From positions 1-20,401 of IMG/VR virus record IMGVR_UViG_3300042891_001178: a DNA stretch of 20,401 nucleotides; one strand, 5' to 3'. Source of the stretch: a virus. The notes beneath the pieces are model-generated. The model was not told the origin of the DNA and did no database searches. It worked only from the letters and a program-made list of their open reading frames with translations. The position numbers were made by a program, and so were the translations under genes. Of the stretch, positions 10,060 through 12,064 are shown piece by piece. Positions within the stretch are counted from its first letter, which is position 1. The number at the start of each line of letters is the position of its first letter.

Positions 10060-10635
10060 TCACGGCTTCATCGCCGCGGCGATGTGGTCCTCGACGATCT
10101 CACCGATGCGCACCTCATCCTCGGCCGAGATCCCCAACCACGGCCGGGCCGGCAGCACGGACACATGCGCCTTGGCTTTGACCTCTCGCTCGACATCGGC
10201 TTTCCCGCGCGCGGCGAAGCGATTGCCGATGCTGCCGTCAGGGTTGCGCTTGAAGCGCAGCTTCTGCACGCGCTCGGGTCGCTCGTAGGTGTGCCCGAAC
10301 TGATGCGCGGCGCCGTAGGGCGCATTGGTGCCGACGTACAAGGCGTCGCCGTCGACCTGCCAGGCGAACATGTCGCCGAGCATGTGCCGATCGAATCGCA
10401 GCATCGGCACGCCCGGCCGCTTGCGGCCCTTCCAGCGCTTGTACGCCGGCGAGAGCGCCTTCCAGGGCGTGCCGTCCGGCGAGACCTGGCGATCGGCGCG
10501 CGCTCGGGTCGAGTTGGCCACCGTCTCGCCGATGTGGCTGAGCAGCAGCTCGCGCCCTTCGCCGTCGAGCGCTTCGGCCGCTCTGGCCAGTGCCGGGCTG
10601 GCCCGGTTGTCGATGACGACGCGTGCTCCGCTCAT
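10060..10635 (-). CDS. G: Phage virion morphogenesis protein (Mu gpG-like)
   Basis: This 191-residue protein starts MSGARVVIDNRASPALARAA at ATG 10635, with GGAGGA upstream. The family marks of Phage_tail_S/gpG are clear: RQVSPDGTPWKALSPAYKRW near residues 50-70, MLRFDRHMLGDMFAWQVDGD, GTNAPYGAAHQFGHTY near 105-115, and the C-terminal LPARPWLGISAEDEVRIGEI. In Mu, G is needed for head-tail joining or tail-end assembly. The protein is soluble and basic. It is followed by a 200-base non-coding gap (9860-10059) and preceded by the tRNA-like element. Confidence 0.92.
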   Translation of the reverse strand: MSGARVVIDNRASPALARAAEALDGEGRELLLSHIGETVANSTRARADRQVSPDGTPWKALSPAYKRWKGRKRPGVPMLRFDRHMLGDMFAWQVDGDALYVGTNAPYGAAHQFGHTYERPERVQKLRFKRNPDGSIGNRFAARGKADVEREVKAKAHVSVLPARPWLGISAEDEVRIGEIVEDHIAAAMKP

Positions 10636-10652
10636 GCTGCTATCCTCCGCCG

Positions 10653-10730
10653 GCGCGGTAGTTTCCTAGTGGAAAGGTTGGGGCGGCCCGCACGCCGCGT
10701 CATTATCCGGTTCGAGTCCGGCGCCGCGCA
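10653..10730 (+). ncRNA. tRNA-like element between F and G (opposite strand to late operon)
   Basis: This 78-nt stretch folds like a tRNA. Acceptor GCGCGGT (10653-10659) pairs over 7 bp with GCCGCGC (10723-10729), followed by A and CC, then T, so no full CCA. A D-like stem, TTTCC (10662-10666) with GGAAA (10671-10675), has loop TAGT. An anticodon-like stem, GCGGC (10683-10687) with GCCGC (10694-10698), has a 6-base loop CCGCAC. The T-arm has CCGG, loop TTCGAGT, CCGG (10707-10721). The anticodon loop lacks U33 and seven bases, so a normal tRNA is doubtful. It fills nearly the whole gap between the F stop and the G start. Confidence 0.6.
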
Positions 10731-10732
10731 CC

Positions 10733-12064
10733 TCATTCCAGGCTGCCGCTGATCAGCTGCAGTCGCCCGCCGCGCAGATCCGCGCGCAGATCCTCCAGGT
10801 CGATCAAAGACGCGGTGCGCACCGAGTTGATGACCTCGCGCCCGCTGGCCATCTTGAGGCGGTAGTTCACCGCCACGATCACCTTGCCGGCGCCGCGCCT
10901 GGTCGAGGCATCCACGACGTAGCGCAACGTGCCGTTGGCCAGGTCCAGCAGGACGGCAGTTGGCTTGCGCAGCAGCGAGGGCAACCGCACCAGCTCGTCC
11001 GCCGTCCATGCGATGGGGCGGCTGGCCGCCTGCTTGGCATCGCGCAGCGCATGCAGCGCCTCGGCATCACGCAGTGCGATCGCCGCGGTGGCAGGTTCGT
11101 TGCCGGCGGCCGTCAGCGCATCGACCACGTCCCGCGACATCGCGCCGACCAGGTACGTCCCATTGCGCGGTTGGCCCGTCGCGACCACGGCCTGCAGCCA
11201 GGTGGCATAGCCGCCGTCCAGGGCATCGAGCGCACGTGCCACGCCCAGGATGCGATCAGCAGCAGCTGCTGCAGGCGCGGCGGGCAGCCGGGCAGTGCTG
11301 GCCAGCGCATCCTGCGCCGCGGTCTCCAGGCCACGCTGCAGCGACGGCGGCGTCTGCGGTCCGCCACGCCGCACGGACCAGCTGCTGCGCCCGGGCGCAT
11401 AGCCGAAGCCTGGATCAACACCCTCGGGCGTGAGCACAACCTGCGGCCCACCCGGACTACGCTGACCCACCACGACCTGGACCAGGTTCACCGCCGGCGC
11501 AGTGTCCGGGCCGTCCTTGCCCATGCGCTTGAGATCGCGCTCGCTCACACCCTCGATCCAGCACTGGCAGCCGTAGCCATTGGCGGGGCAATGTGTCAGG
11601 AACCACGGATCGTTGGCCCGCAGTACCAGGTTGTTCCAGGACAGATGCAGCGGCCGAGGATGCCGCACCGAGTCGCTGTGCCGATAGCGCCAGTACGGCA
11701 TGACCTTGACCAGCCGCTGCAGCTGGTCCCATCGCCCCGCGTTGTAGCTCTGGCGCAGGTTGGTCTCGTAGATCACGCGCGAGCGCCAGTTGCGCCCGCC
11801 GTTGTAGTCCCACCCATAGCGCGCCACGATCGAATCGAAGTCGGCGCGGAACTGCTCCAGCGTGCGGCCCTCGGCGATGGTCTTGTCGATCGCCTCGCGA
11901 AAGTCGGCCAGCAGGTCGACCTGGTTGGCGCCGGCGACCATGAAGGCGTGATCGTGCTCTGACTCCCACACGTCCAGGTAGCTGTCCGTCAGGACGCTGC
12001 GCTTGCGGCGGAAAAACTCGATCTGCTCCTTGAACGGCAGCGAGCCGTAGGCGACGGTGGCCAC
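10733..12064 (-). CDS. F: Head morphogenesis protein F fused to a PBECR-type nuclease-like domain
   Basis: This 443-residue protein starts at GTG 12064, three bases after the portal stop. Residues about 1-210 are the Mu F (PF04233) domain: AEGRTLEQFRADFDSIVARY, then YETNLRQSYNAGRWDQL and the Cys-rich signature ending CPANGYGCQCWIEG. F-type proteins act with the portal during head assembly. A Pro/Ala-rich linker follows. Residues about 349-443 form a separate domain: IAWTADELVRLPSLLRKPTA, VLLDLANGTLRYVVDAS, KVIVAVNYRLK, ending in a strand and helix. This resembles the PBECR RNase-like domains often fused to F proteins, by recall. Whether the domain is catalytic cannot be decided by eye. Confidence 0.87.
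   Translation of the reverse strand: MATVAYGSLPFKEQIEFFRRKRSVLTDSYLDVWESEHDHAFMVAGANQVDLLADFREAIDKTIAEGRTLEQFRADFDSIVARYGWDYNGGRNWRSRVIYETNLRQSYNAGRWDQLQRLVKVMPYWRYRHSDSVRHPRPLHLSWNNLVLRANDPWFLTHCPANGYGCQCWIEGVSERDLKRMGKDGPDTAPAVNLVQVVVGQRSPGGPQVVLTPEGVDPGFGYAPGRSSWSVRRGGPQTPPSLQRGLETAAQDALASTARLPAAPAAAAADRILGVARALDALDGGYATWLQAVVATGQPRNGTYLVGAMSRDVVDALTAAGNEPATAAIALRDAEALHALRDAKQAASRPIAWTADELVRLPSLLRKPTAVLLDLANGTLRYVVDASTRRGAGKVIVAVNYRLKMASGREVINSVRTASLIDLEDLRADLRGGRLQLISGSLE

Follow-up and report, generated by a model that had tools for sequence, protein, structure and literature searches.

Introduction

In type III toxin-antitoxin systems such as ToxIN, CptIN and TenpIN, a small structured RNA neutralises an endoribonuclease encoded beside it, the RNA repeats lying upstream of the toxin gene and running in the same direction. 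The tRNA fold also serves non-decoding ends, for example in the tRNA-like structures of plant RNA viruses and in tmRNA. MuF toxins have been described from temperate phages, with small downstream ORFs as their likely immunity determinants, and the accessible part of that study leaves open whether the C-terminal extensions of proteobacterial MuF proteins are toxins (Jamet et al., 2017; PMC5576092). BECR RNases, as defined in the accessible part of a second study, carry a histidine in the N-terminal helix and a serine or threonine in strand 4; MuF-C is placed in this group, with an inactive copy in Mu and RNase activity predicted for intact orthologues (Iyer et al., 2017; PMC5512222). Between them, the accessible portions of these sources predict that such tails are RNases, that they are delivered with the virion and that immunity to them is needed (Jamet et al., 2017; Iyer et al., 2017).

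Here we describe a tRNA-like RNA that lies between two late head genes, F and G, on the opposite strand, in 20,401 nucleotides of viral DNA (IMG/VR record IMGVR_UViG_3300042891_001178, positions 1 to 20,401; hereafter the window). As in type III systems, a structured small RNA is proposed to neutralise an endoribonuclease encoded next to it, inhibition being proposed here from sequence; unlike the type III RNAs, this one is tRNA-shaped, lies antisense behind its candidate toxin, appears to have its own promoter and usually occurs as one copy, and a phage head protein from another protein family supplies the candidate toxin as its tail. In common with the plant-virus structures and tmRNA, the phage RNA puts the tRNA fold to non-decoding use, but it is specified by a small RNA gene in its own right, in a DNA phage, with no coding part and no CCA. 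F resembles the MuF polymorphic toxins and PBECR/MuF-C proteins, as far as the accessible text describes them, in its MuF N-terminus and probably also in a C-terminal toxin-like domain joined to it (Jamet et al., 2017; Iyer et al., 2017). The immunity of MuF polymorphic toxins is attributed there to a small downstream protein ORF, whereas here an RNA from the opposite strand is the partner: no immunity protein ORF lies directly downstream of F in the window, where G comes next and the gap holds the RNA. The accessible portions of both papers make no mention of an antisense tRNA-like RNA, and a literature search whose coverage stopped short of subscription papers and preprints returned no account of such an RNA or system.

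Results

The RNA (positions 10653..10730 of the window, plus strand; class 1) is flanked by F (10733..12064, minus strand), which Pfam identifies as a MuF head protein (PF04233) and which ends in a MuF_C/PBECR-type domain, and by G (10060..10635, minus strand), a virion morphogenesis protein (PF05069). The 5' half of its acceptor stem (GCGCGGT, 10653..10659) pairs with the 3' half (10723..10729) to form 7 bp (GCGCGGU/GCCGCGC), the final pair being U-G; an unpaired A follows at 10730, and CCA is not encoded. Between the two halves lie a D-arm-like hairpin (UUUCC-UAGU-GGAAA, 10662..10675) with a GG that comparison of relatives shows to be invariant, a variable hairpin replacing the anticodon arm (10679..10702), in which a 3-bp base carries GCGGC-CCGCAC-GCCGC with its 6-nt loop, and a T-arm (CCGG-UUCGAGU-CCGG, 10707..10721) recognised from the fold and from relatives. 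An earlier note, made from the window sequence alone, had described a 78-nt tRNA-like unit between head genes F and G on the opposite strand, with a 7-bp acceptor stem, TTTCC/GGAAA and GCGGC/GCCGC stems, a T-arm with a TTCGAGT loop, a 6-base anticodon loop lacking U33 and the 3' end ACCT; sequence, fold and Pfam agree with it on all these parts, the loop being CCGCAC and the terminal A being followed by CCT in place of CCA. Two descriptions needed amendment: the D-like stem exists as a hairpin but, since GUUUCCAACUGGCAAC-type loops occur in part of the family, is better named a tRNA D-arm (GUU...GG...AA.), and the middle stem exists but is really longer, comprising the 3-bp base (UNN/NNA) and the variable hairpin. 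The plus strand of the window RNA folds with -36.6 kcal/mol and the minus strand with -29.9 kcal/mol; taken by itself, the window fold does not reach significance (z -1.65, with an equally good fold in 15 of 200 shuffles), so that relatives had to decide whether the element is real.

Relatives were gathered with DNA patterns taken from the window and from contig L003, and by blastn; RNA copies were found independently of F and G, except in L003 with its near-identical relatives and in L044. The equivalent element occupies an unchanged place and strand in L003, whose F is 63% identical to that of the window, and is present in the F-G gap of Pasteurella phage AFS-2018a, found by blastn, at 36% F identity. 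A covariance model built from ten copies (R1) matches the window RNA at 89 bits and identifies the RNA at more than 40 phage loci and in bacterial prophages, 45 copies (30-95 bits) being used in the alignment. The family has a common order: a 7-bp acceptor stem in which U-G is almost invariably the last pair, then a short linker, the D-arm and its invariant GG, a variable hairpin at the position of the anticodon arm, the AU-AU block and finally a T-arm containing UUCRANU. Its core (GGU-GUUUCC-GG-AA-GGUU and AU-AUCCGGUUCGA) is near-invariant among deeply diverged phages. The window RNA is a member of an undescribed RNA family without an Rfam entry.

Among the 45 aligned copies, 98.5% of cells are paired in an alignment that, being fitted to the model structure, somewhat favours pairing, and in 13 of 21 pairs both partners have changed. 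None of 500 shuffles reaches this covariation on any of the five measures, and sliding the 3' side by 1-3 positions lowers pairing to 34-57%; in a ten-sequence MAFFT alignment, both partners differ already in 11 of the 21 pairs. Changes on both sides affect five of the seven acceptor pairs and five of the six counted pairs of the variable hairpin, the length of which differs greatly among members. The test that the earlier note had proposed, a search for paired changes and for conservation of the F-G gap in relatives, thus gave a positive answer on both counts. We take the element to be real because it is conserved with compensatory changes in 45 copies, and not from the single fold. A chance fold had been a candidate reading of the window-only fold, and was rejected on the covariation of the relatives. 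Read as the plus strand, the RNA pairs contain 33 G-U cells against 3 A-C cells, and the plus strand is more stable than the minus strand in 42 of 45 copies; this asymmetry, together with the lower plus-strand energy, places the functional RNA on the plus strand.

Upstream of the acceptor stem, members carry -10 boxes at the proper distance, often accompanied by TTGAC-type -35 boxes. The mean -10/-35 score in 43 upstream regions is 8.60, compared to 6.25 for shuffles (sd 0.14, maximum 6.58), the boxes partly overlapping the reverse complement of the G start region. This pattern suggests that the RNA of these members is transcribed from its own sigma-70-like promoter. A strict promoter scan of the window found none: the site at which relatives carry TATACT, TACAAT or CATAAT holds only a weak extended -10-like box, TG-C-TATCCT (10638..10646, plus strand), whose TATCCT overlaps the reverse complement of the G ribosome-binding site. 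As to the traits of a moron, an autonomous unit between late phage genes, the sigma-70-like promoter is strong in relatives and weak in the window, and a terminator lies directly behind the RNA in Gilliamella L175, with none found for the RNA in the window. At another locus, L018, F is of the Gilliamella type with KRGH for KRGR, and the RNA is largely gone, as is the promoter box, both of which its relatives retain.

F and the RNA meet at their 3' ends in 45 of 47 loci, with strands opposed and G on the other side; extra DNA separates the RNA from G in three loci, which indicates that the RNA goes with F. The two departures are L105 and L120. By eye, L105 has what is left of the F C-terminus alongside its RNA, next to the major head gene, and RNA and remnant seem to have moved together. 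L120 carries a tRNA-like RNA (L120:471-544) without F, among filamentous-phage-like genes and flanked by repeated structured stretches. Tandem copies of the RNA occur in L097, L100, L119 and L129, and also in L151 and L153; the normal RNA of L097 and L119 is accompanied by a diverged second copy (30-38 bits). Of the weak R1 matches in whole genomes (25-40 bits), some of the ones examined with ARAGORN proved to be ordinary tRNAs, and such matches were counted only if behind F. A related RNA is present in 170 of 5,426 complete genomes of E. coli. Among the matches listed, the E. coli relatives bear the RefSeq label tRNA-OTHER, and both E. coli loci inspected are Mu-like prophages with the RNA between F and G on the opposite strand. 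These RNAs, equivalent in place and strand, are class 2 of the RNA described here, whereas their annotation denotes a tRNA of unknown type and ties it to neither F nor a function.

The N-terminal MuF domain of the window F matches PF04233 at 38.5 bits. Its C-terminal 175 aa (10736..11260, minus strand), a predicted nuclease domain, were modelled by AlphaFold with a pLDDT of 92.8, and the model places the conserved His70 in helix 65-77 and the conserved Thr149 in strand 140-153 (strand 4), the arrangement of histidine in an N-terminal helix and serine or threonine in strand 4 that characterises the BECR/PBECR layout. The predicted catalytic helix with the histidine is encoded by the codons of LHALRDAK (11033..11056, minus strand), a motif that is gone in RNA-less phages. 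Against Pfam MuF_C the window F scores 14 bits, under the 27.6-bit cut-off, compared to 33.0 bits for the E. coli tail and 27.6 bits for the Gilliamella tail, and a profile of window-type tails matches the set containing E. coli and Gilliamella at 99.3%. Foldseek matched the F-tail fold to phage proteins of the polyvalent, minor-capsid and 'nuclease' kinds; the model had no Foldseek match in the PDB, and a sequence search of PDB chains gave nothing convincing for the tail. Judging from the model and these profiles, the C-terminal domain of F is probably a homologue of MuF_C, which others have predicted to be an RNase of BECR type. When profiles of MuF_C-type and PBECR2-type tails were compared directly, no similarity emerged (1.6%), and that the two share one fold rests on the accessible part of Iyer et al. 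(2017; PMC5512222).

Using H..R..K, HAD..KH or K..RH as the catalytic-type motif of the tail, we found a gap/RNA unit behind F in 46 of 46 loci with the motif and in 1 of 11 without it (Mu is among the ten that have none), as raw counts over related loci found in mixed ways and partly circular, most motif-positive loci having been found via the RNA. L193 is without the motif and has a long gap. Surveys that start from the protein give cleaner tests and point the same way. One of them, of 296 Enterobacterales genomes, yielded ten with the domain, a small subset in which the five strong hits all have an R1-type RNA, L175 and L176 (HAD..KH) have a second kind of tRNA-like sequence at the equivalent place, one of them with promoter-like boxes and a terminator, L178 and L179 (motif absent) have no RNA and G begins at once, and the remaining contig is cut off. 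Within the phage collection, Mu, PhiR68_1, JBD67, PM105, phiSHP3 and Bhz63 have neither motif, gap nor RNA; AFS-2018a has both motif and RNA; and phage B3 (L089) has the motif and a gap, whose RNA was missed by R1 and by eye is not tRNA-like. A further gammaproteobacterial sample contained motif-bearing L186 and L188, with structured units behind F, and motif-less L190, with none. The F N-terminus of L004 is 74% identical to that of the window, and motif and RNA are both absent; that of L067 is just 30% identical, and both are present. This comparison shows that the RNA follows the C-terminus of F and not the rest of the protein. Likewise, the F proteins of an E. coli O157:H7 prophage and of Mu are 46% identical in the C-terminal domain; the HADSMKH segment and the RNA occur in the prophage and are absent from Mu. 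The presence of the RNA is linked to the catalytic-type motif of the F tail, and not to F or G as such.

Discussion

Any explanation has to accommodate what is directly established, namely an RNA family with its fold, coding strand, fixed place and promoter-like sequences in relatives, and the link to the motif. The simplest account of that link is that a functional nuclease tail needs the RNA. We consider it probable that the RNA is an antidote, a tRNA-mimic inhibitor of the nuclease tail of virion protein F; inhibition is the most likely role because predicted RNase tails would harm the producer and because the RNA imitates a tRNA but omits the anticodon loop. A small non-decoding tRNA-shaped RNA would be transcribed from its own promoter against the late head operon, and its partner would be the C-terminal tail of F, predicted to be an endoribonuclease of BECR type and of the MuF_C/PBECR kind. 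The RNA may bind this tail as an uncleavable tRNA look-alike whose anticodon loop is swapped for a variable hairpin. The tail would thereby be kept inactive in the F-producing cell and in lysogens; F would be packaged and, as published predictions of virion travel have it, injected with the DNA, and the tail would act in RNA-less cells, presumably on tRNA. If true, this would constitute a tRNA-shaped RNA antidote for a toxin carried in a phage capsid, and would answer whether proteobacterial MuF C-terminal extensions are toxins and what protects their producers. The RNA family, absent from Rfam, also accounts for some 'tRNA-OTHER' annotations. Mu is a natural relative without either half, and the E. 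coli relatives make the pair testable at once.

The RNA might instead partner the F tail otherwise, as a cofactor, as cargo packaged with F, or as a substrate, the cleavage of which serves as a signal or a maturation step. The link between RNA and motif suits any functional partnership, and RNA binding has been proposed for the inactive Mu domain in the accessible part of Iyer et al. (2017; PMC5512222), but a constitutive-looking separate promoter and tandem copies are more immunity-like, and the filamentous-phage-like contig L120 has the RNA without F; we regard such roles as unlikely. A tRNA mimic used in assembly or packaging, as the earlier note suggested, may likewise be accommodated, but does not predict the loss of the RNA upon loss of the nuclease motif. 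That the RNA always lies opposite the late operon and beside F would fit a cis-antisense regulator that damps the late head genes F and G in the lysogen, with the tRNA fold as a stabiliser only. The conserved tRNA core and the absence of the RNA where the F-G order is kept and the F tail is dead or different make this a quite improbable account; of the earlier note's proposal of an RNA antisense to the late transcript, the position therefore stands and the explanation does not, given that the tRNA fold is conserved and that presence tracks the F-tail motif.

We give still less credence to a decoy against a tRNA-targeting host defence, acting in superinfection or as an anti-defence moron independently of F: its own promoter and its place between late genes would be moron-like and L120 carries the RNA alone, but neither the joint loss with the F catalytic motif nor the constant place behind F would be expected of it. 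The RNA can hardly be a decayed or unusual decoding tRNA gene. It has the hallmarks of the cloverleaf (a D-arm with GG, the UUCRANU T-loop and a 7-bp acceptor), its E. coli relatives are annotated as tRNAs, ARAGORN labels the relatives L044 and L094 tRNA-Val, and L176 passes the Rfam tRNA model at 36 bits. However, a 5-bp stem bearing a 7-nt anticodon loop with U33 is missing in the window (6-nt loop) and in most members, the arm varies in length and loop, there is no CCA, the discriminator base is mixed and conservation is strongly purifying; ARAGORN, which the earlier note had suggested running, found no tRNA in the window, and Rfam gave no match there even at E<=10. The earlier note's view that this is no ordinary decoding tRNA but a tRNA mimic is thus supported, the anticodon arm being a variable hairpin, and its suggestion of a decayed tRNA is contradicted by a core that is near-invariant in diverged phages and by stems that co-vary. 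A leader or intergenic structure of the late mRNA on the minus strand would suit an element that has the F stop on one side and the ribosome-binding site of G on the other, but is scarcely credible in view of the G-U excess, the greater plus-strand stability and the upstream promoter-like sites on the plus strand.

The antidote reading could be widened: RNase toxins carried by virions and countered by RNA immunity might form a general class, in which each MuF-fused nuclease family has its own antisense small RNA that is lost when the nuclease dies, although we rate this at somewhat under even chances. Equally tentative is the pairing it would entail, with tRNA mimics for MuF_C and a different, terminator-ended RNA for PBECR2, protecting the producing cell and lysogens.

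Other antisense units were observed in F-G gaps. The gaps of phage B3 (L089) and L186, two sequences and hence too few for calling a structure, have short CCGGGAAATCGCC and GTGGCGT blocks in common, which the B3 gap shares with L186 only; their RNAs are not R1-type and possibly represent another RNA class. Phages in which F ends in PBECR2 (L006-L033, L041, L052 and L054; PBECR2 scores exceed 100 bits in the two F tails tested) have a different antisense unit in the F-G gap. A 2x2 table for these phages (p 0.08) was set aside, the PBECR2 motif regex being unreliable in that some intact-looking members scored inactive. L090 and L037, with a degraded PBECR2 motif, have no gap. The unit of the PBECR2 phages carries a -10-like box, and several have a terminator-like hairpin at the F stop.
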